A DNA stretch of 49,122 bases from a bacterium (GTDB taxonomy: Bacteria > ARS69), in the NCBI GenBank assembly GCA_025774805.1, contig JALGZR010000062.1, positions 1 to 49,122 on the forward strand. The letters are read 5' to 3'. The position numbers and the translations under genes were made by a program. Positions 5,309 through 36,890 of the stretch are shown piece by piece (the first letter of the stretch is position 1; each line of letters starts with the position of its first letter). The notes under the pieces are model-generated. The model worked only from the letters and a program-made list of their open reading frames with translations, did no database searches and had not been told where the DNA came from.

Positions 5309-6178
5309 TCAAGGGTCCGTCTGGCGCCACGCCGCGCGCCGTCTGACGGAGTGGGCGCCCTTGCGGACGATCGTTCTTCCTTCTTCGGGGAGGGGAGGGG
5401 GGACCGGCTCGCCGATGATCTTCCGAACGGCGTCGATGCGGCCGGGGCAGGCCTCGAAGCAGGTCCCGCAGCGGATGCACTTCTCCTGATCGATGACGTG
5501 AATCCGGTTCTTGCCGCCCGCGATGCCGTCCACCGGGCATCTCTTGCCGCAGATCATGCAGGCCTGGCACTTCTCCGGATCGATGTGATAGGAGACCACT
5601 TCCCGGAAGAGCCCGTCGATCTCTTCCCTCGTATAGAGATCGTCGTAGTCCTCCTCGCGATCGAGGCGGAGCGCCAGCTTGTCCTTCTTGATCAGCTTGA
5701 TGTAGGGAACGAGCTTCGCGACCTCCTCGAGACCGGCGGTCAGATCCCCGTTGCCCTCTTCTGCGCCGTTGCCGAGGGGGCCCAGCTCCCGCAGCTTCTC
5801 GGTGAAGTCGTTCATCACCTCGGCGAACCGGTTGCCCTCCGCGGCGGAGATCCACTCGATCCGGAGCCTTTCGGGGTTCACCCCCCTGTGCTCGAGCAGC
5901 CTCTTGCAGAGATGCATCAGGTTCAGAGCATCGTAGTTCCCTTCCGTCACGTAGTGGCACTCCCCGAGCCAGCAGCCGCCGACGATCACCCCGTCGGCGC
6001 CCTTCCGGAACGCGCGGAGCACGAAGGCCATGTCCACCCGGCCGGTGCACATCAGGCGGATGATCCGGATCTCCGGTGCATAGCTTTGTCTGGTAACTCC
6101 AGACAGGTCCGCAGCGGAGTACGCTCACCAGTTGCAGAGGAAAGCGACGATCCTCGGCGAGTGGCCGAGTCCGGTCAT
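5309..6178 (-). CDS. bamF: BamF/MvhD-like selenoprotein with C-terminal ferredoxin domain
   Basis: This 289-residue electron-transfer subunit would pass electrons between HdrA-like BamE and an external donor. The conventional reading starts only at MCTGRVDMAF (6052), but on the minus strand an ATG at 6178 with a strong GGAGGTGAGG site overlaps the bamE stop (ATGA). From it the reading runs MTGLGHSPRIVAFLCNW, an in-frame TGA at 6127-6125 (residue 18), then AYSAADLSGVTRQSYAPEIR straight into the conserved MCTGRVD. MvhD has Cys at the TGA position (CNWC), so TGA is read as selenocysteine. The MvhD part (GADGVIVGGCWLGECHY) is followed by two [4Fe-4S] motifs (CQACMICGKRCP, CIRCGTCFEACP) near residues 215-255. 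BamF of Geobacter is, from memory, also selenocysteine-containing. It is the last gene of the operon. Confidence 0.9.
6087..6105 (-). promoter_or_regulatory. SECIS-like hairpin in bamF
   Basis: Downstream of the TGA the minus-strand RNA folds as a perfect 7-bp stem, TGTCTGG/CCAGACA, closing a 5-base loop AGTTA. The loop starts 27 bases after the TGA and has G within its first two bases. Both properties match the known rules for bacterial SECIS elements, which lie inside the coding region just 3' of the UGA and bind SelB. The stem is also coding sequence (LSGVTRQ). Confidence 0.7.
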
Positions 6179-9100
6179 GTCCTCACCTCCTCTTTCGCCC
6201 GATTCTCTTCACCGGCGGAGCTCCACGACTCGGAGAGCGCCGCGTCGATCTGGTTGAAGACCTCCTCGTTCGTGAAGTGCCTCAGGACGATGGCGTCGGT
6301 CGGGCACTTGCTGCAGCAGAGGCCGTCCCCCTTGCAGAGGGCGGGATTCACTTCCGCCTTCTGGCCCCACTTCGTCTGGCGCGCGTGGATCGCGCCGTAC
6401 GTGCAGGCCTCGATGCAGGCCCCGCAGCCGATGCAGCGGGATTCCTCGACCTCGCAGACCGACCCGGATGCCGTGACCGTGTCGTGGGACAGGAGCGTGA
6501 CCGCCCGCCCGGCCGCGCCGAGGGCCTGGCTGATGGTCTCCGAGAGGTGCTTCGGATAGTGGTTCGTCCCGCACATGAAGACGCCGTCCGCGCCGAAGTC
6601 GACCGGCCGGAGCTTCACGTGGGCCTCCTGGAAGAACCCGTCCGGATTCACGGGCACCTTGAAGAGACGGGCGACCTCCGGGGTGCCGGCCGAGGGAACC
6701 ACCGCGGCCGAAAGGGCCACGAGGTCGGCGTCGATGGCCAGCCGCTGCCCGAGCACGGCGTCGGGAACGGTGACCTTGAGGACCGGCTTGCCCTCCTCGT
6801 CCTGGGCCGTCTCGACCTCGGGCCTGCCGTCCGGCTCCCACTGGACGAACCGGACACCCCGGTCCGCCGCCTCGAGGTAGTAGTCCTCCTTGAAGCCGTA
6901 CGTCCGCATGTCCCGGTAGAGAATGTAGAGGTCCAGGTCGGGGCTCCGCCTCTTGAGGGTGAGCGCGTTCTTGACGGCCTGACTGCAGCAGACCCGGGCG
7001 CAGTAGTCCCGGCCCTCCTGCCGACATCCCACGCACTGGATCATCACGACGCTTCGTGCCTTTTCGATCCGCTCGTCGCCCCCGTCGATCCGCTCCTCCA
7101 GCTCGAGCTGCGTCCACACCCTGTCGTCCTCGCCGTAGAGGTACTCGACAGGCCGGTGCTCGTCCGCGCCCGTGGCGAGGACGACGGCGCCGTGCTCGAT
7201 GACCTTGGTCTGTCCCTCCGACTCCACCGTGGTGACGAAGTTGCCCACGTACCCGGACGCGTCCGTGATGGTCGCCGCATGGGAGACGTGGATGAGCGGA
7301 TGTCGGTAGACCTGCTGGATCAAATCCCTCACGTAGGCCTGAACGTCCAGCCCTTCCAGCGTGGCTCGGATCCGCCGCGCCATGCCGCCCAGCTCCTTCT
7401 CCTTCTCCACGAGGTGGACGTCGAAGCCCTGATCCGCCAGGCCCAGCGCGCAGTTCATTCCGGCCACGCCCCCGCCGACCACCAGGGCCGTCTTGTTCAC
7501 GGGAAGCTCGAACTCCTGCAGCGGCTCCAGGCCGATCGTCCGGGCCACCGACATGCGGACGATGTCCTTGGCCTTCTGGGTGGCCTCCTCCTTCTGCTTG
7601 GAGTGCACCCAGGAGCAGTGCTCCCGGATGTTGGCCATATCGAAGAAGTACTGGTTGATGCCCCCTTCCCGGAGCGTGTCGCGGAAGAGCGGCTCGTGCG
7701 TGCGCGGTGTGCAGGCGGCGACCACCACGCGGTTGAGTCCCTTCTCCCGGATCGTGTTCGCGATCTGCTCCGCCGCGTCCGTGGAGCAGACGAAAAGACC
7801 CTCCTCCGCGTGGGCCACGTGCTCCAGGCCCTTCGAGTACTCGACCACGGAGGGAACGTCCACCACGCGGCCGATGTTCGCGCCGCAGTGACAGGCGAAG
7901 ACGCCGACCTTGAGCTCCTCTTCGGAGACGTCCCGCTCCTCGGGATACACCCTCTCCTTGTCCAACTGGCCTCGGCGGGACTTCAGCAGGGCCCCGGCGA
8001 GGGCGCTGGCTCCGCTGGCGCTCATCACCGACTCGGGAATGTCCATGGGGCCCTGGAACGCGCCGCTGACGAACACCCCGGGCCGGGTGGTCTCCATGGG
8101 ATTCACCGGGTTGGTCTTGCAGAACCCGTGCGCGTTCAGCTCGATGCCGAACTGCTCGGCGACCCGCTTCACGTTCGCGGGCGGGGCCAACCCGATGCCC
8201 AGGACCACCAGGTCGAACTCCTCCTCCTTCACGCCCTCCCCGTTCGTCGCGTAGCGGATCGTCACGTTCTTCGTTCCCGGAATCTCCCGCCCGATCTCCA
8301 CGTAGCTCCGGATGAACCGGACCCCGGGCATGTTCTCCGCCCGCCGGTAGAACCGTTCGAAGTCCTTGCCGAAGGAGCGGATGTCGTTGTGGAAGACGAC
8401 GGCCTCGGTTTCGGCGTCGTGGTCCTTCGCCAGGATCACCTGTTTCTGGACATACGAGCAGCAGACCGAGGAGCAGTAGCTGTGGCCGCCCTCGAGCACC
8501 TGTCGGGAGCCGACGCAGTGGATCCACGCGATCTTGTGGGGGTGTTTGCGGTCGGAGGGGCGCAGGATGTCGCCCTCGTGCGGTCCGGTCGCACACAGGA
8601 GCCGCTCGAAGTCGAGACTGGTCACGACGTTCTGCAGCGTCCCGTAGCCGTAATCGCCCCGCACCCGGGGATCGAACGCCGCGTAGCCGGGCGAAAGGAC
8701 GATCGCCCCTACCTTGACGACCTGCTTCCGCGCCTTCTGGCGGAGATCGATGGCCTTGTTCTTACAGACGCTCTCGCAGATCGTGCACTTCTCGTCCTCG
8801 AGGAAGCGGCAGCGGTCATCGATGTAGGGAACGAGCGGAACGGCCTGCGAGAAGTAGATGTGGATCGCCTTGTTGTCGGAGAGTTCCTGATTGAACGCGT
8901 CGGGGACGTGGATCGGGCAGTATTCGGAACAGGTGGTGCACCCGGTGCAGACGTCCTCGTTCACGCGCCGGGGCTTGCGAACCAGCGTGACCTCGAAGTC
9001 TCCGGCCTCGCCTTCGACCTTCTCGACCTCCGTGTAGGTGAGGATCTCGATGTTCGGATGCCGGTCGCACTCGATGAACTTCGGCGACTCGATGCACATC

Positions 9101-9279
9101 GAGCAGTCGTTGGTCGGGAACGTCTTGTCGAGCTGGGCCATCTTCCCGCCGATCGTGGGATCCCGCTCGACCAGGTAGACCTTGTAGCCCGACGTCGCCA
9201 GATCGAGGGCGGCCTGAATGCCGCTGATCCCGCCGCCGACGACCATGACGTCTCCGAGCCCGTTCTCGGACGCGCTCAT
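6175..9279 (-). CDS. bamE: BamE: double HdrA-like flavin/iron-sulfur electron-bifurcation-type subunit
   Basis: The product has 1034 residues, about 1.5 times a methanogen HdrA, because the flavoprotein module is present twice. The first FAD-binding site is VVGGGISGIQAALDLA (residues ~12-27). It is followed by ferredoxin-type clusters CTGCTTCSEYCP and CTICESVCKNKA. Next come the HdrA motifs CVGSRQ...YCSSVCCSYVQKQ and CHCGANIGR (Cys here, where some methanogen HdrA has Sec). A second FAD site (VVGGGVAGMNCALGLA) and a second CVGCRQ...YCARVCCSQAVKNA set follow. Two more [4Fe-4S] motifs (CIGCGACIEACTYGA, CKGDGLCCSKCP) end the protein. The start ATG at 9279 overlaps the bamD stop (ATGA) and its own stop overlaps bamF, indicating tight translational coupling. 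In Geobacter, BamE is the flavin subunit proposed to bifurcate electrons; the same role is inferred here. Confidence 0.9.
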   Translation of the reverse strand: MSASENGLGDVMVVGGGISGIQAALDLATSGYKVYLVERDPTIGGKMAQLDKTFPTNDCSMCIESPKFIECDRHPNIEILTYTEVEKVEGEAGDFEVTLVRKPRRVNEDVCTGCTTCSEYCPIHVPDAFNQELSDNKAIHIYFSQAVPLVPYIDDRCRFLEDEKCTICESVCKNKAIDLRQKARKQVVKVGAIVLSPGYAAFDPRVRGDYGYGTLQNVVTSLDFERLLCATGPHEGDILRPSDRKHPHKIAWIHCVGSRQVLEGGHSYCSSVCCSYVQKQVILAKDHDAETEAVVFHNDIRSFGKDFERFYRRAENMPGVRFIRSYVEIGREIPGTKNVTIRYATNGEGVKEEEFDLVVLGIGLAPPANVKRVAEQFGIELNAHGFCKTNPVNPMETTRPGVFVSGAFQGPMDIPESVMSASGASALAGALLKSRRGQLDKERVYPEERDVSEEELKVGVFACHCGANIGRVVDVPSVVEYSKGLEHVAHAEEGLFVCSTDAAEQIANTIREKGLNRVVVAACTPRTHEPLFRDTLREGGINQYFFDMANIREHCSWVHSKQKEEATQKAKDIVRMSVARTIGLEPLQEFELPVNKTALVVGGGVAGMNCALGLADQGFDVHLVEKEKELGGMARRIRATLEGLDVQAYVRDLIQQVYRHPLIHVSHAATITDASGYVGNFVTTVESEGQTKVIEHGAVVLATGADEHRPVEYLYGEDDRVWTQLELEERIDGGDERIEKARSVVMIQCVGCRQEGRDYCARVCCSQAVKNALTLKRRSPDLDLYILYRDMRTYGFKEDYYLEAADRGVRFVQWEPDGRPEVETAQDEEGKPVLKVTVPDAVLGQRLAIDADLVALSAAVVPSAGTPEVARLFKVPVNPDGFFQEAHVKLRPVDFGADGVFMCGTNHYPKHLSETISQALGAAGRAVTLLSHDTVTASGSVCEVEESRCIGCGACIEACTYGAIHARQTKWGQKAEVNPALCKGDGLCCSKCPTDAIVLRHFTNEEVFNQIDAALSESWSSAGEENRAKEEVRT

Positions 9280-10478
9280 GGCCTCTCTCCGCCTTCCCCG
9301 AACGACTCGAGGACGACCTCGGTGAGGTCCCGGATCTCGAGAACGGCGCCCTCGGGCGGACCCCCGTTCCCCGCGAGACCGAGCCGGCTCTCCTCGAAGT
9401 TGCTGATGCAGTAGGGGCAGGAGGTGACCAAGACCTCCGCGCCGACCTCCTGCGCCTGGGCCAGTCGGAGGTCGCCGAATCTCTCCTCCCTGTCCGTGTG
9501 CATCCAGATCCGGCCGCCCCCGCCGCCGCAGCAGAGGCTGTTCTGCCGCGTGTCGGGCAGCTCCACCAGCTCCAGGCCGGACAGCTTTCCCAGCACGTCC
9601 CGGGGCTCGTCGAAGACCCCGTTGTGGCGTCCCAGGTAGCACGGGTCGTGATACGCCACGCGTTTGTCGAATCGCCCGGTGAGCTCGAGCCGTCCCGCCT
9701 CGACGAGCTCCTGCAGATACTGCGCGATGTGCACGACCTCGAGGTTCACCATGAACTCGGAGTACTCGTTCTTGAACGTGTGGTAGCAGTGGGGAGATCC
9801 GACGAGGATCCGCTTCACTCCGTGGTCGATGAAGGCCTTGATGTTCTCCCGGGCCAGGGTCTTGAACTCCTCCTCGTTGCCCGCCTTGCGGATGCTCTCG
9901 CCGCAGCAGCTCTCCCGCGTGCCCAGGATTCCGAAGTCCACCCCGGCCCGCTCGAGGAGCTTGGCGGTGGCGGCCGCCACCTTCATGTTGCGCGGGTCGT
10001 AGCTGTAGTAGCACCCGACGAAGTACAGGATCTCCATGCCCTCGGTGAACGGCTTGACGGACAGGCCGTTCGCCCAGGCGGTCCGCTGGTCCCGCGCCTC
10101 CCCCAGCGGATTGCCTTCACTGACGATGCTGGTGCGGACGGCGCGCAGCGAGCTCGCCGCGCCGGAGAACACGTCGTAGCTCGCCGCGAGCTTGCGGATG
10201 GCGACCGCGACCTCGATCTGATCGACGCCCCGGGGACACTGCGACGGACATTCCCCGCACGTCGTGCACCGCCAGATGTCATCGACTTCGATCTCCGGCA
10301 GACCCAGAGCGGCCTGCCAGACGATTCGGCGCATGCTGAAGTTCGTCACGCGGTTCCAGGGGCAGACGACGTCGCACTTCCCGCACTGATAGCAGTACTT
10401 GAAGACCCCGCCGCCGGCGTCCTGGATCTCCCGGGCGATGTCGGCAAAAGGGGTGACGGTCTCCACGCTTCTCTCCAT
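9276..10478 (-). CDS. bamD: BamD: HdrC/HdrB-like iron-sulfur subunit
   Basis: The product is a 400-residue cytoplasmic electron-transfer protein. N-terminal HdrC-like part: two [4Fe-4S] motifs, CYQCGKCDVVCPW and CTTCGECPSQCPRG (residues ~28-90). The C-terminal HdrB/LldE-like part has two CCG domains, ESCCGESIRKAG and NSLCCGGGGGRIWM, plus DPCYLGRH and SCPYC, as needed for noncubane clusters. The start ATG at 10478 was chosen from the conserved N-terminus. The Shine-Dalgarno sequence is poor (ACGGAG directly abutting the ATG), and this is the only junction of the operon with a gap (23 bases) rather than an overlap. Its end overlaps bamE by 4 bases. The alternative name would be a generic heterodisulfide-reductase-like subunit; gene order favours BamD. 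Confidence 0.87.
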   Translation of the reverse strand: MERSVETVTPFADIAREIQDAGGGVFKYCYQCGKCDVVCPWNRVTNFSMRRIVWQAALGLPEIEVDDIWRCTTCGECPSQCPRGVDQIEVAVAIRKLAASYDVFSGAASSLRAVRTSIVSEGNPLGEARDQRTAWANGLSVKPFTEGMEILYFVGCYYSYDPRNMKVAAATAKLLERAGVDFGILGTRESCCGESIRKAGNEEEFKTLARENIKAFIDHGVKRILVGSPHCYHTFKNEYSEFMVNLEVVHIAQYLQELVEAGRLELTGRFDKRVAYHDPCYLGRHNGVFDEPRDVLGKLSGLELVELPDTRQNSLCCGGGGGRIWMHTDREERFGDLRLAQAQEVGAEVLVTSCPYCISNFEESRLGLAGNGGPPEGAVLEIRDLTEVVLESFGEGGERP

Positions 10479-10501: not shown

Positions 10502-11056
10502 CTACGGCCCCTTCGACATCCGATCGATGGCGTCGCGCACCTTCGACCAGCCGTGCTTGTTGGCCAGGGCCTCGAGCCCCGCGTCCACCTCTTCCACGGT
10601 CTCCTCCTCTTCGACCTCCTCTTCCCGCTGCTCGAAGGTCAGCGCATCGGCCAGGCACCACTGCACGCACATGGGTTCCTCGAGCGACGGATCCGACTCA
10701 CACATGTCGCACTTCAGCGGCAGTCCCGAGTCCGGTTCCTTGAAGACGTCGCGGGAGGGACAGGAGGCCCGGCAGAAGGCACACTCCTCGTATTCCTTTC
10801 CGTCGATCCGGTACTTGTCCCGACCCGCGCACTCGGCCGCCGTGTACTCGCCCGCGTACACGGGGACGTAGATGTCCGAGAGCGGCTCCCGGATCACGCG
10901 GATGCGCGCTCTCGCCGGGTTCGTGCTGCTGTACTGGGGATGGGAGTGGAAGGCGGAGCAGATCACCTCACAGCCCCGGCAGCCGTTGCACTTGTCGACG
11001 TCGATGACGATTCGTTTGATGACTCGCGTTCTCTTCTTCTTCGCGGGGCCGCTCAC
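10502..11056 (-). CDS. bamC: BamC: ferredoxin-like iron-sulfur subunit
   Basis: The product is a 184-residue polyferredoxin that would connect the tungsten subunit to the Hdr-like components. It starts at a GTG (11056) that overlaps the bamB stop as GTGA. Cys motifs in order are CNGCRGCEVIC (residues ~22-32), CAFCRASCPSRD, then CDMCESDPSLEEPMCVQWC, consistent with several [4Fe-4S] clusters of the DMSO-reductase-electron-subunit type. A short acidic patch (EEEVEEEETVEEV) follows, and a basic stretch (KKKRTRVIKR) opens the protein. No signal or membrane segment is seen, so it is cytoplasmic. Position directly after the AOR-type gene is as in Geobacter bamBC. Confidence 0.85.
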   Translation of the reverse strand: MSGPAKKKRTRVIKRIVIDVDKCNGCRGCEVICSAFHSHPQYSSTNPARARIRVIREPLSDIYVPVYAGEYTAAECAGRDKYRIDGKEYEECAFCRASCPSRDVFKEPDSGLPLKCDMCESDPSLEEPMCVQWCLADALTFEQREEEVEEEETVEEVDAGLEALANKHGWSKVRDAIDRMSKGP

Positions 11057-12916
11057 GACTCGCTTCCTTCGCTGGTGGCGGCCTGGCCCACGACCTCTTC
11101 GTCCGCCTTCAGGATGCCGCGCTCCCGGAAGTCCTCGACCACGTATTCCAGACCGAGCTCGTGCAGGGACGTGCGGGTGGGGACCCCCTCGAGATTCCAC
11201 CCCTTGAACTCGTAGTAGGTGTCGAGCAGCTTCTCTTCGAGCTCGGGGAACCTTCTCTTCCAGTGATCCGCCGGGGGCGCCTCGTCGGCGCGCCGCATGC
11301 CCCTTCTGATGTTGTTGGCCCGGACCAGATCCCGGTTCCGTCTGGTGAGATGCGTCAGTGACTCCTCGTCCAGTTCGAGCCCGGCCCCCGCCGAGATCAG
11401 CTCGGGCAGATTGTGGATGTGGAACGGCGGCTTGTACGGGAAGGACGACAGCCCGGCGCACATCCCGGTGCTGTCGTCGATGTAGTGCATCTTCTCCTGC
11501 CAGTTCACGATCTCACAGCTCGCCTCGGCGGAGGGATAGTTCGGGATCGAGTTCTCTCCCCGGAGCTCCCAGTCCTCGAACCACTGCTTGAACCTCTCGT
11601 CCGGGACGTGGGGCCAGTTGCGGGTGAAGTCCTCGCGCTCCTCCCGGGTCGGGAAGGGGGCCTGGGGGAAGTTGCCCTCGATCTGGGTGATGTTGGCTTT
11701 CTCACCGGTGCAGTACATCAGGAAGTACATCTGGTTCAGCATGCCCAGCTTGAGCGGCAGCTGCTCGGTCTTCTTGATGCAGTTGTGTGCGTACTCCTCC
11801 GCGCCCTTGCCGATCCTCTCGGCCGCCCAGTACGTGCCGTCCGCCAGGACGTCGCCGATGCCCTCCCGCCGGACGATCCGGTCGAGCAGCCAGTAGAAGC
11901 GCCCTTCCTTGTCGGACGGCATTCCCGGGACGTCCTCGTCGGTCAGGATGCCGGCCTCGAGGAGCTCGATCGCGAACGCCATGGTCTGGGGAGCGCTGAA
12001 GGCGTCCACGCCGTGCTCCGTGGCCTTCTGCGCGATCCTCAAGCCGAACTCCAGATCGGAGAAGGCCGCCATCGTATACGTGAGCTTGGAGAAGCACTTC
12101 ATCATGTACGAGCACATTCTCGTATCGACGGAGATGGCCGCCCCGCACTTCATCGGGCAGTTGTAGCAGCTCAGGAGCCGGGTCCGCATCGACTCCATCG
12201 TGTTCGTCCACTGCTCGCTGACCTCTTCGGTCCAGAAGCCCTTTCTGCGCACGCGGGCGTTGCCCCAAACGAAGTTCTCCGTGTGCCACTGCTCGTCGTG
12301 GACGACCATCTCCTGCGGGGAGCCGAGGCCGGCCATGATCGGCATGACATTCTTGAGCGGGTTCTCGTTGCGGTGCTTGATGAACGCCAAAGGCGTAGAA
12401 CACCCGATTCTCGCCGGCCAGTCCGATGGAAGAGACCGCGGCGTCCGGCTGCTCCAGCTCCTGACGGATCACCTCGGCGCTCTCGAGCGTCCCCAGACCC
12501 ATGAGGTGCTTCGCGTCCTTGAGCTCCACCTTGTCGTCGTGAATCCAGAGGTAGACCGGTTCGGGAGACTTGCCGCGCAAGATGATCTTGTCGTACCCGG
12601 CTCGCTTCAGCTCGGGACCGAAGAACCCGCCCATCATCGAGAACCCGAAGAGCCGGGTCTGCGGGGAGATGGAGGACACGATGGTGCGATTGCATCCGGG
12701 AGCGGGGGTCCCCACCAGCAGACCGGTGCCGAAGATAAGGAGGTTTTCCGGATCGAAGTGGCCGACCTCCGGGGGAACCCGGTCCCAGAACAGCTTGGCG
12801 TTCGTGCCCAGTCCTCCGAGATGGAGCTCGGTGAGCCGCGGGTCCGTCGCCACCCGTTCGATGTTCCCCCGGGTCAGATCGATCTCCAAATTGAACCCGG
12901 TTTCCGCGTATCTCAT
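11053..12916 (-). pseudogene. bamB: BamB/AOR-family tungsten enzyme, internal deletion plus frameshift
   Basis: This gene should be the catalytic subunit (class II benzoyl-CoA reductase or a close AOR-family relative). The first 174 residues (MRYAETGFNLEIDL ... GLAGENRVFYA) read in one frame from the ATG at 12916. The remaining ~445 residues (FIKHRNENPLKNVMPI onward) read in another frame, switching at about 12390-12396. In homologs GENRV is followed by ~53 residues with the AVMGDKGxKAIAVRG pterin-binding motif; here they are absent, so about 160 bases are missing. The retained part has SPQEMVVHDEQWHTENF, whose E, H and H spacing fits the active-site residues reported for Geobacter BamB (from memory), and CYNCPMKCG for the [4Fe-4S] cluster. 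As given the gene cannot make a working enzyme; an assembly gap is equally possible. The ATG overlaps the tetR stop. Confidence 0.85.
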
Positions 12917-13554
12917 TCTTCTCCCCCGTCGGTTTCGCTGGAGGCGGAAGCGACGTAGCCGTCCAGAAAGAGGGCGGTCTGCTGCGCCGCGAGATCGTCG
13001 AGGCTCACCCGGGTCCGCTCCGGGTCGTACCACTGATAGAACCAGTTGAGCATGCCGAACAGGTTCGCGGTGGCGAGCCACGAACGGAGGGGTGCGCCCC
13101 GCCGGGGTTGGACCTCCTTGACGAGGTCGTGAACGGCCTCGAAGTAGGAGCGGCGGAGTTCGTAAACCTCGTCGTACGCTTCACCTTCGAGGGTCTCGAG
13201 CTCGCGGGCACAGACTTTGAGCTCGTTCATGTTCTCGCCGAAGTGGCGCACGTGATTGCGCACGGCCGCGGCGATCCGCTTCCGCGGATCGACGATCCCC
13301 TCGAGGCTGCTCCTCAGACCCCGGAGCAGCGAGTCGAACGTGTGGAGCTGGATGGAGTGGAGGATCTCTTCCTTGCTCGAGACGTAGTGGTAGATCCCCG
13401 CGAGGCTGGACCCGGCCTCGGCCGCGATGCGCCGCATCGAGGCCTTGTCGTAACCCACCGCACTGAAGACTCGTGCCGCCGCCGCCAGCACGTGGAGCCG
13501 CTTCCTGTCGAAGGTGGGAGGCCGCCGGCGGGTGGTCGCAAGTGCCATCGTCAT
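12913..13554 (-). CDS. TetR-family transcriptional regulator of the bam-type operon
   Basis: The product is a 213-residue repressor. The N-terminal helix-turn-helix is clear (KRLHVLAAAARVFSAVGYDK, ASMRRIAAEAGSSLAGIYHY, residues ~18-62). The C-terminal ligand domain ends with LAAQQTALFLDGYVAS. It is the first gene of the operon: its TGA overlaps the bamB ATG, so regulator and enzyme are co-translated. A palindrome lies between its promoter and start, so autorepression relieved by a ligand, probably an acyl- or aromatic-CoA, is inferred. The start could be the ATG at 13554 or the ATG two codons later at 13548. Confidence 0.88.
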   Translation of the reverse strand: MTMALATTRRRPPTFDRKRLHVLAAAARVFSAVGYDKASMRRIAAEAGSSLAGIYHYVSSKEEILHSIQLHTFDSLLRGLRSSLEGIVDPRKRIAAAVRNHVRHFGENMNELKVCARELETLEGEAYDEVYELRRSYFEAVHDLVKEVQPRRGAPLRSWLATANLFGMLNWFYQWYDPERTRVSLDDLAAQQTALFLDGYVASASSETDGGEE

Positions 13555-23550: not shown

Positions 23551-26085
23551 ATGCGTATTCCGACTCTTGTCATTCTCGCGGGTCTCGTGACCGTCTGCCT
23601 CGGGCCGACGGTGGGCCCCGCGCACGCCGAGCCGTCCGGGCCGGCCCGCGCACTCCTCGATTGGTTCGACCACATGGATGGATTCTATGACGCGAACCCC
23701 GAACTCAAGAGGACCCCGGGCAGCGGCTGGAAGCCGTTCAACCGGGTCAGGTGGTTTCAGAAGCAACGCATGGTGAATGGTGAGCTGCCGCCCGTCGGCG
23801 CCCGCTGGCGCGCCTGGGAGGCTCGTCGGGCGCTGGAGGACCGCCGCGGCCGTTCCTCTCGCTCGATCTGGTTCTCCCTCGGCCCCGTGAACTTCGCGGG
23901 TCGCATGCTCGCCATCGACTTCGACCCGGTGGACCCGAGCATCCTCTACGCCGGCGCTGCCAGCGGGGGGGTCTGGCGATCCACGGACAGCGGGATCACG
24001 TGGATCCCGATCTCGGACGAGCTGCCCTCGCTCGCGATCGGAGGACTCGCCGTCAGCAAGACGAACCGAGACGTCATCGTGATCGGTACGGGCGAGGGCA
24101 CCATGAACATCGATCGCGTGACCGGGATCGGCATCCTCCGATCTACCGACCGCGGCGCTTCCTGGATTCCGACGAGCCTGTCGTACCCGGCCACCGGCCT
24201 ATTCGGCCACGGTTTCCACTTCCTGGAATCCGGTCCCGGCGGGACGTTCCTCGCGGGAGCGGTCGACGGTCTCTACCGATCCTCGGACGACGGCGCGACC
24301 TGGACGCAGGTTCGAGGGGTCACGCGCGAGGACTACCGCTGCGGCTACTACGACGCCAAATGGGACCCCGAGGATCCCTCGCGCGTGTACACGGTGAAGG
24401 GGAACGACACGTCCGGCAACAACGTGAAGGTGTCGACCGACGATGGGCTCACCTGGGCCAAGGCGGGCACGGGGCAGCCGCCGTCCTTCATGATCGGCAA
24501 GTCGAAGCTCGGAGTGAGCGGGAGCACCGTCTATGCGTTCTTCGGAGACCTGGGTGCCGGAACGACTCTGGGACTCTGGAAGTCCACCGACGACGGCGCG
24601 ACATGGGCGAACACGTCTGCCACCGGGCTTCCTGATTGGCAGAGTTGGTACAACCTCATCTGCGCCGCCGACCCGAACGACCCCGAAATCGTGATCACGG
24701 GAGCGGTGAATCTCACGCGATCCACCGATGGCGGGTCGACGTTCGTCCTGGTCGGATCGAACGTCCACGTGGATCACCATGCCGTCGCCTGGGAGCCGGG
24801 GAATCCCGAGGTCGTCTGGGTGGGCACCGACGGCGGAATCTGGGAATCGACGGACGATGGCGCCACGTGGACCGACCGGAACGTCGCATTGATCACCTAC
24901 CAGTTCTACGACATCTGTGTGGGGAACGGCCCCACTTACTACGTCATGGGAGGCACGCAAGACAACGGCACTGACAAGTGGTCCGGAACGACGACGTGGG
25001 CGGAGGGACTGGGAGGCGATGGAATGGTCTGCGACATCCCCTCCGTATCCGACAACGTGGTCTACGCCGAGGCCATCGACTGGCACTTCAAGAGCACCGA
25101 GTATGGAATCGAGGGCTCTTTCGTTCAGATCGACAACGGCATTCCGGGAGGAAACGCACAGTGGGTCGTCCCGACCGATGCAGCCGAGAGCGATGCCGAC
25201 TACGTGCTGACGAACCACTCGACGGCCGGGATCTTCCGTACCACGAACGGTGGGGATTTCTGGGTGAACGTTGCGGCCCACACGGCGACGTGGATCTCCA
25301 TCAGCGAGATGGACGCGGACGTCGCCTGGACGATCGACGGCAATACCGTCCATCGGACGACCGATCGAGGCGACACGTGGACGCAAGCCGCGGCCCTCGG
25401 ATTCGAGGCGGGGGCCGCTACAAAGATCCTCGCCCATCCCACCGATCTGAGCACGGCGGTCGTGACGTTTTCCGGCTACGAGGACCTCTGCCACGTGGCC
25501 TTCACGACGGACATGGGCGCGAGCTGGACGGACGCCACGGGAAACCTCCCGCCCCTTCCGGTCAGCGCGATCGCGATCGATCCGAGTAGACCGGGGGACT
25601 GGTACATCGGCACCGATCTCGGCGTGTGGTCGAGCGCGGACAGCGGGGCGACGTGGTCGCCGTTCGAGGAGGGGCTGCCCAACGTGGTCATCGCCGACCT
25701 CGAGATCGCGGATGCTCCTCGCAAGCTCGTGGCGGGTACGCACGGCCGTGGCGCCTGGGAGATTGCATTGCCGCCGCCCGGGGGCGTCGGCGTCACCGTG
25801 GCTGCGGATCGAGGGGCTCGGAACCTCATGCTCGATCCGCCTTACCCGAATCCGACGGCTGACCGTACGCTGCTTCGTTACGCGGCGCGGAGCGACGCTC
25901 CAGGGCACCTCCGCATCTACGACGTGAACGGTCGGGTCGTCGGTGATCTCGCGCAATTCGACCGCGGCGATGGGATCATACGCACGACGCCTTGGCTCAT
26001 CGATGAGCTCCCGAGCGGACTCTACTTCGCTGTGCTCGAGGCCGGCGGCGAACGGATCTCCAGAAAGATCACGGTTCTTCGCTGA
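23551..26085 (+). CDS. Secreted BNR/sialidase-like repeat protein with FlgD-like C-terminus
   Basis: The product has 844 residues, with a signal peptide (IPTLVILAGLVTVCLGPTVG, cleavage near AHA) and GGAG before the ATG. The body is a set of Asp-box/BNR repeats of sialidase or VPS10-type propellers (GGVWRSTDSGITW, GIGILRSTDRGASW, GLYRSSDDGATW, GLWKSTDDGATW, GIWESTDDGATW, VHRTTDRGDTW). No sialidase FRIP motif or Arg triad is seen, so catalysis is doubtful and carbohydrate binding more likely. The last ~85 residues are the FlgD-like module (LDPPYPNPTADRTLLRYA, LPSGLYFAVLEAGGE). GC-rich codon use matches its neighbours. Confidence 0.87.
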   Translation: MRIPTLVILAGLVTVCLGPTVGPAHAEPSGPARALLDWFDHMDGFYDANPELKRTPGSGWKPFNRVRWFQKQRMVNGELPPVGARWRAWEARRALEDRRGRSSRSIWFSLGPVNFAGRMLAIDFDPVDPSILYAGAASGGVWRSTDSGITWIPISDELPSLAIGGLAVSKTNRDVIVIGTGEGTMNIDRVTGIGILRSTDRGASWIPTSLSYPATGLFGHGFHFLESGPGGTFLAGAVDGLYRSSDDGATWTQVRGVTREDYRCGYYDAKWDPEDPSRVYTVKGNDTSGNNVKVSTDDGLTWAKAGTGQPPSFMIGKSKLGVSGSTVYAFFGDLGAGTTLGLWKSTDDGATWANTSATGLPDWQSWYNLICAADPNDPEIVITGAVNLTRSTDGGSTFVLVGSNVHVDHHAVAWEPGNPEVVWVGTDGGIWESTDDGATWTDRNVALITYQFYDICVGNGPTYYVMGGTQDNGTDKWSGTTTWAEGLGGDGMVCDIPSVSDNVVYAEAIDWHFKSTEYGIEGSFVQIDNGIPGGNAQWVVPTDAAESDADYVLTNHSTAGIFRTTNGGDFWVNVAAHTATWISISEMDADVAWTIDGNTVHRTTDRGDTWTQAAALGFEAGAATKILAHPTDLSTAVVTFSGYEDLCHVAFTTDMGASWTDATGNLPPLPVSAIAIDPSRPGDWYIGTDLGVWSSADSGATWSPFEEGLPNVVIADLEIADAPRKLVAGTHGRGAWEIALPPPGGVGVTVAADRGARNLMLDPPYPNPTADRTLLRYAARSDAPGHLRIYDVNGRVVGDLAQFDRGDGIIRTTPWLIDELPSGLYFAVLEAGGERISRKITVLR

Positions 26086-26101
26086 CAGGGCATCGTCCGA
26101 G

Positions 26102-26130
26102 GGCGGGCCGCTGATCGACGGTGGCCCGCC
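26102..26130. terminator. Stem-loop after the BNR gene
   Basis: An 8-bp perfect stem, GGCGGGCC/GGCCCGCC, with a 13-base loop starts 16 bases after the stop at 26085. There is no T-run, so termination is possible but unproven. Confidence 0.45.
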
Positions 26131-26139
26131 GCTCGGTCC

Positions 26140-26292
26140 CCATGGCGGCTAGCCCGGACTATTCATGAACGACCTGCTGCGATCGCGGATCCGCACCACC
26201 GGACGGACGTCCTCGCGTCTCGCACCCTGCGACGTATCGTTCAGATACGCCTCGGGTTCGCCTTCATGAATAGTCCGGGCTAGCCGCCATGG
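26140..26292. repeat. Foldback/MITE-like element, copy 1
   Basis: A perfect 30-bp terminal inverted repeat (26140-26169 and 26263-26292; inner core AGCCCGGACTATTCATGAA) flanks 93 bases. The interior contains CGTATC-GTTCA-GATACG, a second small hairpin. A related copy with the same terminal core and the shared segment CCCTGCGACGTATCG...AGATACGCCTCGG lies at 40930-41110. It carries no gene. CTAG occurs at both outer edges of the core and could be a target duplication. The minus-strand stop codon of the FG-GAP gene (TAG, 26282-26280) lies inside the right arm. This looks like a non-autonomous transposable element; the parent transposase is not in the window. Confidence 0.75.
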
Positions 26293-27119
26293 ACGATGGT
26301 CTGGTTGACGAGGATTCGATATCCTCCGGTGCCCTCCCGGGTTCCGAGCAGCAAGTCCAGATCGCCGTCACCGTCCACATCCGCCAAGGAAGGGATCCCC
26401 TTTCCGCCGATTGGTGAGCCCGTCCCGGTGAATCCCCCTCGACCATCGTTCAGCCAAAGGGCGACGTCCTGTTCCTTGCCGACGCCGGCCGTCAACATGT
26501 CCAGGTCGCCGTCCCCATCCAAGTCTCCGAGAGCTCCACGCGCGCCGGCTCCGAAGTAGTCGTCGGCAGGGGAGAAGATGTACTTGCCATTGTTGGCCCA
26601 GAGCCTGCCGGGCTTCTGGAAGACCGTCACGAACGCGTCGAGATCACTATCGCCGTCGACATCTCCCAAGGTGACGTTTGTACTCCAGTCCTGCGTATCA
26701 CCGCCCAGCTTCTGTCCGCTGTCGATCAGGTTGCCGGTGCCGTCATTGAGGAACACGAGGTCAGGACCGCCATTGTCGACCAAGAAGAGATCGAGATCGT
26801 GGCTCCCGTCGAGATCGCCGAGTGCGGCACCGTGACCTCCACGATTACCCAGACGCTGCCCGCTGTCTCGGAATCGGCCCCGCCCGTCGTTGATCCAGAC
26901 GTGGCTGGAATCGAGGAAGCTGAGCACGACGAGATCGATGTCGCCGTCACCATCCAGATCGCCGGGTGCGATCTGAAATGTCCGGCGGTCCCCCAGGTGC
27001 TGTCCGGATTCCTCGAACCGGACCCCGGTCGTCTGCGGTGAAACGAGTGATGGGGTCATCAGCAGCAGAAAGCCCGTAAACATGGACTGTGGAGTCCATC
27101 CGCGGCAGTTACCGTGCAT
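26280..27119 (-). CDS. Secreted FG-GAP/VCBS repeat protein
   Basis: The product has 279 residues. The ATG at 27119 has GGAGGAATCAAG upstream. The signal segment is SMFTGFLLLMTPSLVSPQ. It contains six calcium-binding FG-GAP loops (GDLDGDGDIDLVV, GDLDGSHDLDLFL, GDVDGDSDLDAFV, GDLDGDGDLDML, ADVDGDGDLDLLL) separated by strands ending in WxNDGRGxF. This is about the size of one small propeller. The gene's last codons run into the right arm of the foldback repeat, which supplies the stop, so the original C-terminus may have been longer. No FlgD-like module is present. Ligand unknown. Confidence 0.83.
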   Translation of the reverse strand: MHGNCRGWTPQSMFTGFLLLMTPSLVSPQTTGVRFEESGQHLGDRRTFQIAPGDLDGDGDIDLVVLSFLDSSHVWINDGRGRFRDSGQRLGNRGGHGAALGDLDGSHDLDLFLVDNGGPDLVFLNDGTGNLIDSGQKLGGDTQDWSTNVTLGDVDGDSDLDAFVTVFQKPGRLWANNGKYIFSPADDYFGAGARGALGDLDGDGDLDMLTAGVGKEQDVALWLNDGRGGFTGTGSPIGGKGIPSLADVDGDGDLDLLLGTREGTGGYRILVNQTIVHGG

Positions 27120-27346
27120 CTTGATTCCTCCGACGCTTGGAGTTCACTGGAGAACACGATGGGATCCGGCTACGCCGCTCTCCGGGATCTTCCCGGGGCG
27201 CCCGAACGTGGGCTGTCGGTGACCGGCGTGATCACGGTCCCGATGGAGACACATCTTGGTCCGCCGATCTCGACGAAGAGGGCTGATTCAGGCCTCTCGG
27301 GACCCCCGCCCCGGGTTCGTGGAACGAGTGCGCGGGTAGTGTCCGC

Positions 27347-29164
27347 TCACGGTCCTCTGACGTAGAACGCATCGGCCCATTTCCCCCGCCAGACGCGCGT
27401 CAGACCGACCGTTTCGGGCATCCGGGAGGTCAGGTTCTGGTCCAGGAGGACCAGCGTGCCGGCACGGTACATGGCGGGGTCGGCCGCCGCCCGCCTGGGC
27501 CGTCCCACCGCAACGATTTCCCCGGTCGCACCTCCCACCAAGTCGTAGATGTAGAAGAAGTCGGGCGGCGCGAGCGCTAGCGGAGAGATCCTGCGGCCGA
27601 GGAGGAGGACCCGCGAGGGCAGCAGCCCCTCCCGCCGAACCGCGTCGAAGCAGCTTGCGATCTCGCTGCGGTGAGCCGCGTGCCGCAGCGGCAGTGCGGC
27701 GTGGTACAGCCCGACGAACACGAAGGAGGCAAGAAGGACCCCGCAGGCGGTATGGGCCCGGTCGCCTACCCGGCGACGCATGGCCACGGTTGCGACGATG
27801 AAGACCACGGCGATCCCGAGCGTGACCCCGACCGGGACGAGCGATAGTGGGCTCGACACTCCCGCGAGCGGCGTGAGGTTCTGCTCGAACTCCGGCCAGA
27901 GCGGCGACATCCGGGAGTAGGGATCGTAGGTCGGCACCGGGACGTACAGGGCCGACAGCGTCAGGGTGATCGCGGCAACGATGCACACGACGCAGAATCC
28001 CGCCTCGTACAGGCGATGACAGAACACCGCGACCAAGAGCGCCAGGGGCGGGAGGATCGGAACTACATACCAAGGGAACTTGGTCCAGATTACGGTGATG
28101 GTCAGCCCGTAGGCGGCCGTCCACACCAGCAGAAGCCACGGACCACGATCCCGCGGCTTGCGGACCAGATTCCACAACAGGGAGACGAGGCCCGGGACGA
28201 TCAGGAGACTCCAAGGAAACATGGAGTAGAACACGACAAGCGGATAGAACGTCGCCGCCCGACCTGTCTTGATCGTCCGCACGGCAGGCAGCCCGTCGGC
28301 CGAGAGGCTGACGTCGGTCCCACCGGTGACGCGCCCCAGCATCTGGTTGTTGACGTACTCTCGGACGAAATCGTCACCGTGGGCGACGATCTGGTGGACG
28401 TGCCACGGGGCGACGATCACGAGAAAGAGCAGCGCGCCGAGCAGGCCTGTGCGAAGGGACATCGCTCGCCACGCCTTGGTGATCAGTGCGTACAACAGGA
28501 CGATGATGACCGCCGGCCCGACGATCGGCCCCTTGATCAGCACGAGAATTCCGAGGCTCGAGACCAACCCGCAGAACCAGCGCGCGTCGCGAGGGATTCG
28601 CCAGAGACTGAAGACCGTCAGAACGTAGAAGAAGGCGGTCTCCGGCTCCTGCTCGGCGGTCCGCGCGCAGTGCTCGTGGAGGAACTGAGTGGAGGACAGC
28701 AGAACGGCGGCGCCCAACAGGCCGACCGTCCATCCGAAGACGGCGCGTCCGAGAGCGAGCGTCATCGCGATCGTGCCGAGCGCGAAGAGGGCCGAGCTCA
28801 ACCGACCTCCCCACTCGTTGATTCCCAGCACCTTGTACCCCAGAGCGATGAGCCATATCTTCCCCGGCGGCTTGATGAGGAACGGTCGTCCATTGTAGCG
28901 AAGGGTAAGGTAGTCGCCGCTTTCCACCATCTCGCGCGCCGACTGCAAGTAGACGCCCTCGTCGCCGTTGTGCAAGCTGGTGGCCCCGAGATTCCAGAAG
29001 AGAAGGAGGGCGGCGATGCCAAGAAGGAGGAGGGCCGAACCGAAGCGAAGGACGCGCCGCGAGAGGGTGCCACCGTACCTGCCCGGAGCGAGCGCGGTCG
29101 GCACGATGTCTGCCCGCGCTACCGGCGCGCGCCGGGCGGCCGTCTGCTGACCGTCAACGCCCAT
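27347..29164 (-). CDS. GT39/ArnT-like membrane glycosyltransferase
   Basis: The product has 605 residues with about 11-13 membrane segments. The start at 29164 (MGVDGQQ) has AAGGAC upstream. After the first segment (LLLLGIAALLLFWNLG), the first periplasmic loop has HNGDEGVYLQSAREM, whose acidic pair is the catalytic feature of PMT/ArnT enzymes. It is followed by FLIKPPGKIWLIALGYKVLG and GGRLSSALFALGT, typical of the family that transfers a sugar from polyprenyl phosphate to lipid or protein acceptors in the periplasm. The acceptor cannot be predicted, and no lipid-A or glycan cluster is adjacent. The C-terminal ~150 residues form a soluble domain. Confidence 0.85.
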   Translation of the reverse strand: MGVDGQQTAARRAPVARADIVPTALAPGRYGGTLSRRVLRFGSALLLLGIAALLLFWNLGATSLHNGDEGVYLQSAREMVESGDYLTLRYNGRPFLIKPPGKIWLIALGYKVLGINEWGGRLSSALFALGTIAMTLALGRAVFGWTVGLLGAAVLLSSTQFLHEHCARTAEQEPETAFFYVLTVFSLWRIPRDARWFCGLVSSLGILVLIKGPIVGPAVIIVLLYALITKAWRAMSLRTGLLGALLFLVIVAPWHVHQIVAHGDDFVREYVNNQMLGRVTGGTDVSLSADGLPAVRTIKTGRAATFYPLVVFYSMFPWSLLIVPGLVSLLWNLVRKPRDRGPWLLLVWTAAYGLTITVIWTKFPWYVVPILPPLALLVAVFCHRLYEAGFCVVCIVAAITLTLSALYVPVPTYDPYSRMSPLWPEFEQNLTPLAGVSSPLSLVPVGVTLGIAVVFIVATVAMRRRVGDRAHTACGVLLASFVFVGLYHAALPLRHAAHRSEIASCFDAVRREGLLPSRVLLLGRRISPLALAPPDFFYIYDLVGGATGEIVAVGRPRRAAADPAMYRAGTLVLLDQNLTSRMPETVGLTRVWRGKWADAFYVRGP

Positions 29165-30796: not shown

Positions 30797-30996
30797 GAGC
30801 TCCCTCCAGCCCACGCAACGCTCATCAGCAGGACGGGAAATACCCGGACAGCGCCCCGACCTTCCCCCCAGATCTTGTTCCACCCAACACGCAGCCGTTT
30901 CGAGCCTGCGGTCTTCTTCCTGCCACACGTCTTCTCGGGGGTATTCCGGAGACGGTCTCTTGTGGAGCCGTAAGCCTTTGATTTGACGAGAGATAG

Positions 30997-31024
30997 TGGT
31001 AGGGGCCGCGAGAATCGAACCCGC
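30997..31024 (-). other. tRNA 3'-end fragment (possible attachment-site remnant)
   Basis: On the minus strand GCGGG-TTCGATT-CTCGC forms a normal T-arm, followed by GGCCCCT, a discriminator A and CCA. That is the exact 3' third of a tRNA. The matching 5' acceptor strand, D-arm and anticodon arm are not found within the 120 bases upstream, so it is not a complete tRNA. It lies exactly where the decayed segment (29.6-30.9 kb) meets intact metabolic genes. The rest of 30797-31376 holds no supported gene. Confidence 0.5.
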
Positions 31025-31376
31025 GGCCCGGCGATTCCCCGAACCATCGAGCCCGTGGTCCGGTGACGACGGGCGATCACGCGACTCCCCGGCCGGCCGC
31101 CGATTCCCGGTCCTCCTGGGACCCCGCCCTCCTCTGCGTCCCGTAGCGCCGTCCCGGGCGGAAGCGGCCCCGGAGAGGAGCGCCCGGGGTCGGGAGCGGC
31201 CCCGCCTGGGGCCACCTCCGGTCCGGCGCTTGACCCTGTCACCACATCACGGGAGATTGGCGGGATGGTGCGTGCGCTCGAGCGGATTGCGGTGTCGATC
31301 CCCGCCGCTGTCCGGTCGAGCGCCGAGCCGCCGTTTTCCGCGTTTGGGACTTTTCCGGGTTGAAGGAGGAACACCG

Positions 31377-33344
<1,968 letters not shown>

Positions 33345-33356
33345 CGGGGGGACGTC

Positions 33357-34637
33357 ATGAGCAAGAACGGGTCCGTGATGATTCTCGACGGGGGACGCCG
33401 GACGCCCCGGCCGGACATCCTGATCGACAACCGGGAGCCGGGGCTGTTCTCCCGTTTCACCACCACGCAGCTCGGGGGAATGGCCATCCAGGCCACGCTC
33501 GAGAACACCGCCGTCGACAGGGACGCGATCGGGCACGTCGTCATGGGCATGGCGACGCACAGCCACCGCGACTCCATTTACGCGGCCCAGGGCATGGCGT
33601 GGCGCGGCGGTCTCGCCGCCGACGTTCCGGCCCTGACCGTCGCCCGGATCTGTGGGAGCGGGGCGGAGGCCGTGGCGGTCGGCGCGGAGATGATGCTCGC
33701 CGGAATCCGACACGATCAGAGCCGCCCCTTCACCGTCGTCGGCGGCGCGGAGAGCATGCAGTACCCCTTCATCGTCTACAACCTGAGGGGGAAGAAGGTG
33801 GGCACGGCGGTCCAGAAGTACGGGCCGGTGGACGCCAGGGCGCTTCCGCCCGGAACGCACCTACAGGACTCGCTCCTGATGGGCCTCTACGATCCGTCCG
33901 CCAACATGGCGATGGCGAACACGGCCGAGGAGCTGGGCCGCCGCTACAAGATCACGCGCGAGGAGGCCGACCGGTTCGGGTACCGCTCCCACACGAACGC
34001 GAAGAAGGCGCGGGACTCGGGTTGGTTCGACGAGGAGATCGAGCCCGTCATGGTCCAGAGGGACGGTGCCGAGGATCCCGTCGAGGTGAAGCACGACACT
34101 CACATTATGGACGACGTGACGCTCACGAAGATGGCCCGTCTGCCGGCGGCCTTCGAGCCCGGTGGGATCATCACGGCGGGCAACGCGAGCGCGGTGGTGG
34201 ACGGGGCGGCGGCCATGGTGATCGCCAAGGAGTCGGACGTCGAGAAGCACGGCCTCAAGCCCCTCGCCCGAGTCGCGGGAATGGGCGTGGCCGCCTGCGA
34301 TCCGCACATCATGGGTTGGGGTCCGGTTCCGGCCACGAAGAAGGCCCTCGAGAACGCCGGGCTCCGGGCGAGCGACCTCGATCACGTGGAGCTGAACGAA
34401 GCGTTCGCACCCCAGGCCCTGGCCTGCATCCGCGACTTCGGCGAGATGGGCATCGACCCCGAGAAGGTCAATCCCATGGGCAGTGCGATCGCCCTGGGTC
34501 ACCCCCTCGGGGCCACGGGGGCGATCCTGACTCTGACGTGCGCGTACGCGCTGCGCCGGAAGCAGGAGCGCTACGGTCTGGTCACGATGTGCATCGGCGG
34601 CGGACAGGGCGCGGCTCTGATTCTGGAGTCGATGTAG
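33357..34637 (+). CDS. Acetyl-CoA acyltransferase (thiolase)
   Basis: The product is a 426-residue thiolase that cleaves 3-ketoacyl-CoA or condenses acetyl-CoA. The nucleophile is in [14 protein letters not shown] (C99). The C-terminal catalytic motifs are present: [12 protein letters not shown] (His-region variant NEAFA), [15 protein letters not shown] and [13 protein letters not shown] (acid/base Cys). A GGGGGGAC site precedes the ATG, and the gene directly follows the dehydrogenase/hydratase fusion, so the pair covers the last three steps of beta-oxidation. An acyl-CoA dehydrogenase is not in the window. The long insertion around residues 150-175 is typical of FadI/MaoC-linked thiolases. 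Confidence 0.92.
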
Positions 34638-34862
34638 GGCACCGACCGGCGACGGAGGGACGCCGGGCGGCGTGTCACGCGACGCTCCGCTGTCCGTAGC
34701 AGGATCGAGCCGTTGACCCGGGTCCCCGCACCCCGCCCTGCTCTTCCCGCACTCTTCACCACCCGGGTCGTTCGTGTCGACGGGTCGAGGGAATCCCCCG
34801 CGCTCCCGGCGGCGATGATTCCCGGCCGCCCCGCTGGCCGACCAACCCGGGAGGACGACCTC

Positions 34863-36890
34863 ATGTGGCCGATTCGGTTCCGGCCGCCGCTTGTCGCGGC
34901 GGCGTTGCTCACGACAGTCTTCGCCACTCCCCCGATCTCCGCTCAGACCGGCGTGGACGGACTCCGCCTCGTCGGGACGAACCTGGATCAGTTCGCGCAC
35001 GTGATGTCCATCCGGGTCGTGGGCGACTACGCCTACGCCTCGATCGGGTTTCCGCCCGGCCTGGAGACCTACGACGTCTCCACACCCTCGAGCCCGGTTC
35101 GGGTGGCATTCATCGGCCGAGCGGCCTGGCGAACCTCCGTTTCGGGGGACACGCTGTTCAGCTACTGTCACTTCGACGGGGTCGAGTGGTACGACATCTC
35201 CTCGGGGATCCCCGTGGCCCTCGGCTCCTACGATCCTCCGAGCGCGACCACCGCCTACGAGGGGGGCGCCCGCGTGGGCGACTCCCTCTATGTAGCGGCC
35301 CTCCAGGCCGGGATCGAGATTGTCGACCTCGGAATGGCGCCGTCGCACACCGGGACGATTCCTCTGAGCGACGACGCCGCCTGGGACGTGGAGGCCTCCG
35401 GCGGGCACCTCTTCGTCGCGAACGGTCGTCACGGCCTGGCGGTCGTCAGCCTCTCGGGGACGCCTGCCGAGGTGGCCACGCTTCCGCTGCCCGGCCTGGC
35501 GAACGACATCGAGATCTCGGGAACCACCGCGCTCCTGGCCCTGGGCGCGGACGGCGTGGCTTCCGTCGACATCTCCAATCCCACGGCTCCGGCTCTCCTG
35601 GACGTTCATCCGACCTGGGGGAACGCGTTCTCCATGGGGCGGATCGGGGATCACCTGGCCGTGGGCGCCTATCCGTTCTTGGAGGAGTACGACGTCTCCG
35701 ATCCGATGAATCTCGTCCGTTCGGGTTGGGACCAGACCCGGACCTATGCGATGGGCGCGGGGGCGGGCGTAAACAGCGCGGGCGACACCCTCTACGCCGT
35801 CGCCGACTGGGAGGGAATGGCGGTCTATGTTCCCGAGGAGGATCCGGGGCCGGACATCGCGATTTACCCCACGCGACTCGACTTCGGCGCGGTCACCGCC
35901 AGCCGGGACACCACCGCCGAAGTCCGGAACAACGGAACGGATGCGCTCGACGTCTCCCTCATCACCGCACCGGCCGGATTCTCGGTCTCGCCGGCGACGT
36001 TCACGGTCCCGCCGGGGGGGGTCCAGAACGTCGTGGTCACCGCCACGAGCACTCCCGAGGTGCGGGGAGAGATCCGCTACTTCTACAGCGCCTCCCGCGG
36101 TCCGGGGGCCCCCTCCTTCGCCAACCAGTTCGTCTATCAGAACAACACGACCTTTCCCCAGGTGGGATCGGTCGCGCCGGACTTCGATCTGCCGGGCACC
36201 GACGGGAACAACCACCGGCTCTCCGACTATCGAGGGAGGGTGGTGTACCTGGAGTTCGGGGCGAACTGGTGACCCATCTGCCCGCTGCAGGCTGCAGCGA
36301 CGGATGCTTCGATCTACTCGCGCTATGATACGACCGAGGCGGTCGTCTTCGAGATCACCCAGTTCATCGACCAGTCCGAGGAGTTCCGGGACACGTTCGG
36401 CATGCGGTTCGTGGGCCTCGAGGACGCCGGGAGCGCGGTCTACTCGACGTATCGGACGCCCGATCCCTACGCGCCCTATCCCCAGGACTACATCATCGAT
36501 CCCGGCGGAGTCGTTCGGCACTGGTCGACGGAGTACGAGCCTCTGGAGGTCATCGCCGTGATCGACGAGCTTCTCGGAGCCACCCCGATCACCGAGAGCC
36601 CGACCGTCGCTTCCGGCCCCTGGCTCTCGACGCCCTCGCCCAATCCGTTCCTCGAGGGCACGACGTTTCGCTTCGGAGTCCCTCTCCGGGGCCGGGCCCG
36701 CGTCACCGTGCACGACATCGGGGGGCGCCGTCTCCGCGTGCTGGCGGACGGAACCTGGTCGGCCGGGGTGCACCGGGTGACCTGGGACGGACGCGACGCC
36801 TCGGGCCGCCGCGCGGCCCCGGGCGTGTACTACGTTCGTTTGGAGACCGACCGGGAGACGCGAACGACGCGGGCGACCCGGCTGCGGTGA
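34863..36890 (+). CDS. Secreted LVIVD-redoxin selenoprotein (Sec-x-x-Cys) with FlgD-like C-terminus
   Basis: The gene reads in one frame from the ATG at 34863 (GGGAGGACGACC upstream) to the TGA at 36890 if the internal TGA at 36270-36272 is decoded as selenocysteine (residue 470 of 675). A signal peptide ([20 protein letters not shown]) leads into LVIVD-type propeller repeats ([39 protein letters not shown]). An Ig-like choice-of-anchor region follows ([20 protein letters not shown]). Then comes a TlpA/AhpC-TSA redoxin domain: [23 protein letters not shown]-Sec-PIC-PLQ. Sec occupies the first Cys of the usual WCxxC motif. The redoxin continues past the TGA ([17 protein letters not shown]), which excludes a real stop. 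A FlgD-like module ([30 protein letters not shown]) ends it. It is a probable extracytoplasmic thiol-redox protein. Confidence 0.88.
36283..36299 (+). promoter_or_regulatory. SECIS-like hairpin in the redoxin selenoprotein gene
   Basis: A perfect 7-bp stem, CGCTGCA/TGCAGCG, with a GGC loop begins 11 bases after the in-frame TGA; the loop lies 18-20 bases from it. The G-rich apical loop and this spacing match bacterial SECIS rules. The stem overlaps the codons for PLQAAAT. Confidence 0.72.

Follow-up and report, generated by a model that had tools for sequence, protein, structure and literature searches.

A bamF-like gene with an in-frame TGA as a candidate selenoprotein gene in a class II benzoyl-CoA reductase cluster

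Introduction

The FrhD/MvhD/VhuD family (PF02662) is listed as a selenoprotein family of the CxxU type (PMC13188914). Nineteen FrhD selenoproteins with Sec/Cys switches have been tabulated (PMC1794560), as have recoded delta subunits (PMC1242214). For Geobacter metallireducens the bamF gene carries the name 'hydrogenase, delta subunit' (PMC1924859), and a review that lists the parts of the BamBCDEFGHI complex of this organism gives BamC and BamF as hydrogenase-like electron transfer components (PMC12016498). BamF of G. daltonii appears in a 2026 paper as a predicted selenite-binding electron transfer protein (PMC13119186). In Desulfococcus multivorans UGA codons are described in hdrA, mvhD and bamE (PMC5109826).

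Here we describe a bamF-like gene on a 49,122 nucleotide long stretch of bacterial DNA (GenBank assembly GCA_025774805.1, contig JALGZR010000062.1, lineage ARS69), which we call the window. The gene very probably encodes BamF of a class II benzoyl-CoA reductase that is made with Sec at residue 18. It is an added member of an already known selenoprotein family and of a known complex. With the FrhD/MvhD/VhuD selenoproteins it shares the domain and the Cys-x-x-Sec site, while it differs from them by its bam operon setting and by two C-terminal [4Fe-4S] motifs. The gene order bamBCDEF is common to the window and the Geobacter class II benzoyl-CoA reductase, and Geobacteraceae loci, e.g. that of Geobacter argillaceus (L076), have a TGA at the same bamF codon. 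The window differs from the Geobacter bam genes in that no bamG-like gene was identified adjoining bamF and in that the host lineage is small. As in the published description of D. multivorans, a single genome has several candidate Sec genes associated with these enzymes. In that description, however, bamE carries the UGA, whereas in the window bamE has Cys and bamF carries the UGA.

The bamF-like gene and its reading frame

The bamF-like gene extends over positions 5309 to 6178 on the minus strand and reads as a protein of 289 residues, including Sec at residue 18. Its ATG at 6178 overlaps the stop codon of the upstream bamE-like gene as ATGA, with a purine-rich Shine-Dalgarno-like stretch on its 5' side. 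The only stop within the frame before its end at 5309 is a TGA at 6127-6125 (codon 18) in the context LCNW-TGA-AYSAADLSG, which makes it a candidate selenocysteine codon (CNWU). An earlier note on this DNA had described this single stop, and a direct check of the sequence reproduced all of its coordinates for the start, the TGA and the hairpin discussed below.

Residues 10-133 of the product match the FlpD/MvhD domain with 170.8 bits (cut-off 22.3), and two [4Fe-4S] motifs lie in the C-terminal part at about residues 198-245. In a comparison with solved structures BamF matched MvhD chains, e.g. 5odc_D with 149.7 bits, and U18 aligned on the second Cys of CNWC in such chains. These matches are in agreement with the proposed membership in the MvhD/BamF family. 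The site thus has the CxxU form (C15-N-W-U18), with UGA at the position of the second Cys of CxxC. The CNWC motif is a putative cluster ligand. The best MvhD matches in the other genomes compared had 57% identity or lower and covered the MvhD part only.

We propose that BamF is the MvhD-type subunit that transfers electrons in a class II benzoyl-CoA reductase, the tungsten-type enzyme that works by electron bifurcation. Judged from MvhD/VhuD and from the BamBCDEFGHI complex, it would pass electrons between the input module and the FAD of the HdrA-like BamE, and Sec at the second Cys of CNWC would probably tune the cluster or the thiol there.

The open reading frame caller placed the bamF start at 6052, which yields 247 residues and a loss of 42, just as had been anticipated for simple gene calling. 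This shorter protein is what a gene caller would report, and it would be the actual product if the UGA were a true stop. The FlpD match, however, begins upstream of the TGA, the CNW(U/C) part is kept in homologues, and the lost residues include C15 and residue 18. Translation from 6052 in place of read-through is thus very improbable. Since gene callers start at 6052 and drop the key residue, Sec-BamF is easily mis-annotated.

Conservation of the TGA at codon 18

Codon 18 was compared in an alignment of 79 of 80 public genome loci, a second copy from L028 (which contributes two rows), the window and two paralogs from the source genome (G000). The remaining locus, L045, was dropped because its match begins past residue 18. 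Among the 83 rows that cover this residue, 64 have TGA, 18 have a Cys codon (TGT 10, TGC 8) and 1 has GAT, such that the alignment with MvhD/BamF homologues proposed in the earlier note came out in favour of Sec. The TGA form occurs in 62/79 scored public loci, from genomes labelled as many different phyla. Because the search patterns for bamF homologues were back-translated from Cys, any bias runs against TGA. When a tree was calculated with codon 18 masked, the Sec rows and the Cys rows fell into nearly single blocks and required only 2 changes, so the row counts do not represent independent events.

An ordinary Cys BamF, in which a sequencing or assembly error turned TGC into TGA, might be considered for a draft genome, in particular as bamB (see below) suggests that the contig may hold errors. 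However, TGA is present in each of the five nearest BamF proteins (L055, L061, L018, L019, L020; 71-76% identity), and the window has an intact SECIS hairpin together with its AGA codon. The conservation of the TGA already contradicts such an error, for which we see hardly any room.

A SECIS-like hairpin downstream of the UGA

The hairpin TGTCTGG-AGTTA-CCAGACA is found at 6087-6105 on the minus strand, exactly where a SECIS-like element had been claimed. Bacterial SECIS elements are modelled with a loop of 3-9 nt, a stem of 4-16 bp, a G in the first two loop positions, a distance of 16-37 nt from the UGA and an energy of -7.5 kcal/mol or lower, as given in PMC13188914. With a 5-nt loop (AGUUA, G at position 2), a 7-bp stem, 26 nt from UGA to loop and -9.1 kcal/mol for the bare hairpin, the bamF element satisfies this model.

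The fold of the bamF hairpin sequence alone (z -1.58; 16 of 200 shuffles equally stable) is too weak to decide. Codon shuffles of the hairpin region were equally good in 6 of 200 cases, a bare hairpin at -7.5 kcal/mol or lower formed in only 15 of the 64 TGA rows, and an Rfam scan of the bamF region gave one chance match and no match to a SECIS family. Stronger evidence than the window hairpin by itself comes from comparing TGA rows with Cys rows. The inner four stem pairs form in 64/64 TGA rows vs 1/18 Cys rows. The codon for Arg30, located in the 3' arm of the hairpin, is AGA or AGG in every TGA row but in 0/18 Cys rows, all of which use CGN. Elsewhere in the same stretch AGR accounts for 195 of 531 arginine codons in TGA genes and for 76 of 145 in Cys genes. 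Protein constraint alone leaves this fixed synonymous codon unexplained, while an RNA element would explain it. From the anatomy and the conservation of the site, SelB and Sec-tRNA(UCA) are predicted to bind the hairpin 26 nt past the UGA, such that Sec would be inserted.

Other UGA genes

A mini-scan for UGA codons with SECIS-like hairpins covered the window plus a further 122 kb of G000. It required 60 codons on both sides of the UGA, so that BamF itself was invisible to it. Hairpins of -7.5 kcal/mol or lower were found at 2/15 TGA sites vs 3/18 TAG/TAA control sites; a hairpin alone is therefore not specific, and the two TGA matches count because of their protein homology.

The first match lies in the window at 34713-36890 on the plus strand and encodes an LVIVD/Ig/AhpC-TSA/FlgD_ig protein with a TGA at 36270-36272 in GANW-U-PIC. 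Without read-through of this TGA the AhpC-TSA match scores 20.9 bits over 34 positions; with read-through it scores 56.2 bits over 123/124 positions. On the 3' side of the TGA a hairpin, CGCTGCA-GGC-TGCAGCG, is present at about 36283-36299 with a spacing of 17 and -9.6 kcal/mol. From these features the gene is likely the second selenoprotein gene in the window. The other match, on contig C124 of G000 at about 62600 (L138:12601, minus strand), is an HdrA-MvhD fusion with a TGA at 62600 in TMDCSI-U, which we take to be the CxxU of HdrA, and with an 8-bp SECIS-like hairpin of -12.4 kcal/mol. The MvhD part of this fusion has Cys.

The bam gene cluster

Homologues of BamCDEF are found in order, with the bamE-, bamD-, bamC- and bamB-like genes upstream of bamF and all genes on the minus strand. 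The bamE-like gene (6175-9279, start at MSASENG chosen by us) encodes an HdrA-type protein with two FAD/NAD domains and ferredoxin motifs, whose DCSMC motif has Cys and not Sec. It is preceded by a bamD-like gene (9276-10478, start inferred) for a protein with Fer4 and two CCG domains and by a bamC-like gene (10502-11059, start uncertain) for a 4Fe-4S protein.

The bamB-like gene is interrupted. Its 3' part (11053-12390) matches residues 227-652 of BamB (4z3w) with 706 bits, and its 5' part (12392-12916), in another frame, matches residues 1-175 with 282 bits; the next-best scores among aldehyde oxidoreductases (AOR) were 51 bits for the 3' part and 115 bits for the 5' part, which places both parts in the BamB clade of this family. 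Residues 176-226 (~51 codons) are missing at 12385-12391, where the frame changes. The junction holds 7 nt vs 153 expected, a net loss of ~146 bp. The missing stretch is present in L027, L065, L089, L091 and L093. A bamB match was also seen in 47/79 listed loci by hand count, and many of the remaining loci are short contigs.

Selenocysteine machinery and the selD locus

The source genome (G000) comprises 5.1 Mb in 284 contigs at 96.33% completeness and 5.06% contamination. The earlier note would have given up its reading if all selenocysteine machinery had been absent; selA (535.7 bits), selB (382.9 bits) and a tRNA-Sec (selC) with a TCA anticodon are all present in this genome. The search for selD, in contrast, found none over the cut-off of 125 bits in the assembly (best score 20.3 bits); only the remnant described below is left. 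The AIRS_C profile hit just two frames, one of 846 aa with two AIRS_C stretches and one of 348 aa, read as PurL and PurM.

In all 4 same-family genomes selD is present, each with one TGA, and there it is flanked by an unknown gene on one side and by a cyclophilin-FKBP gene on the other. On contig C95 of G000 these two flanking genes adjoin (26752-27624 and 25454-26548). Between them, at 26549-26751 (L156), the first neighbour gene continues in frame into ILGAIPEESGIRIES-stop, a fused SelD C-terminal remnant that resembles the SelD ends of relatives, e.g. VIGGITDSPGIRIEP in G004. The DNA of the remnant region matched that of G004 with a score of 66 (shuffle maximum 27), G001 with 58 (29) and G002 with 34 (28), while the score of 23 against G003 was not beyond chance (28). 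A SelD-like remnant at the ancestral locus indicates a deletion of selD there, which may have happened in the organism or arisen during assembly.

In a survey of 30 genomes, hand-chosen and reached through bamF homologue loci and thus not random, selD exceeded the cut-off in 20/20 sampled TGA-bamF genomes (of 62 such loci) and in 8/10 sampled Cys-bamF genomes (of 17 such loci).

These data bear on whether bamF is a former selenoprotein gene, i.e. whether the lineage is truly without selD, the bam operon is being lost and the UGA now terminates translation in a decaying region. The mere remnant of selD at its ancestral locus and the deletion with frameshift in bamB would be in agreement with such decay, and at 96% completeness one would not simply expect a gene to be missing. 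Against it, bamC, bamD, bamE, bamF, selA, selB and the tRNA-Sec look intact, the hairpins are kept in three UGA genes, every sampled TGA-bamF genome has selD, and misassembly of a draft genome could also produce two such clean internal deletions. Decay of the gene is therefore unlikely, although it is the most serious of the alternatives to a BamF made with Sec.

For the gaps at selD and bamB we rank an assembly fault as the likeliest cause and a real loss of selD and of the bamB parts next; a second, unassembled selD in the organism is possible. We consider it rather improbable that selD is truly gone from the ancestral locus of a bacterium which retains selA, selB, tRNA-Sec and three or more UGA/SECIS genes, with Sec decoding being lost or with a system for Sec (or for Cys at UGA) that runs without the usual SelD. 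According to PMC4561486, SelD is conserved in all genomes encoding selenoproteins, and the selD gap, if real, would bear on this statement. In summary of the earlier proposal, its selenoprotein, family, SECIS and Sec machinery parts hold, while a working Sec-dependent electron transfer in the organism does not follow, with selD missing from the assembly and bamB interrupted.

Genomic context of the window

The bamA model TIGR03200 matched with 574 bits (cut-off 464) on contig C270, elsewhere in the genome, which makes a benzoyl-CoA pathway in the source organism plausible as judged from its genes. An aldehyde oxidoreductase complex other than benzoyl-CoA reductase was judged less likely, with the 4z3w score and bamA against it. 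The bamA gene is a signature gene for a later stage of this pathway, and beside it contig C270 carries a zinc alcohol dehydrogenase-like gene.

Contamination of the genome by the window was also considered. In tetranucleotide composition the window correlated with six further stretches of G000 at 0.78-0.85, compared with 0.46-0.50 for two G002 stretches, 0.70 for G004 (L135) and 0.76-0.78 for L018 and L055 from other lineages. Since G004, L018 and L055 also reach 0.70-0.78, these values oppose contamination only mildly.

Two further observations concern the window itself. At 30996-34637 on the plus strand it encodes a 3-hydroxyacyl-CoA dehydrogenase/enoyl-CoA hydratase fusion and a thiolase, beta-oxidation functions that could serve a benzoyl-CoA pathway. 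Just before bamB, at about 12913-13398 on the minus strand, an open frame resembles by eye the C-terminal part of a TetR-type regulator.
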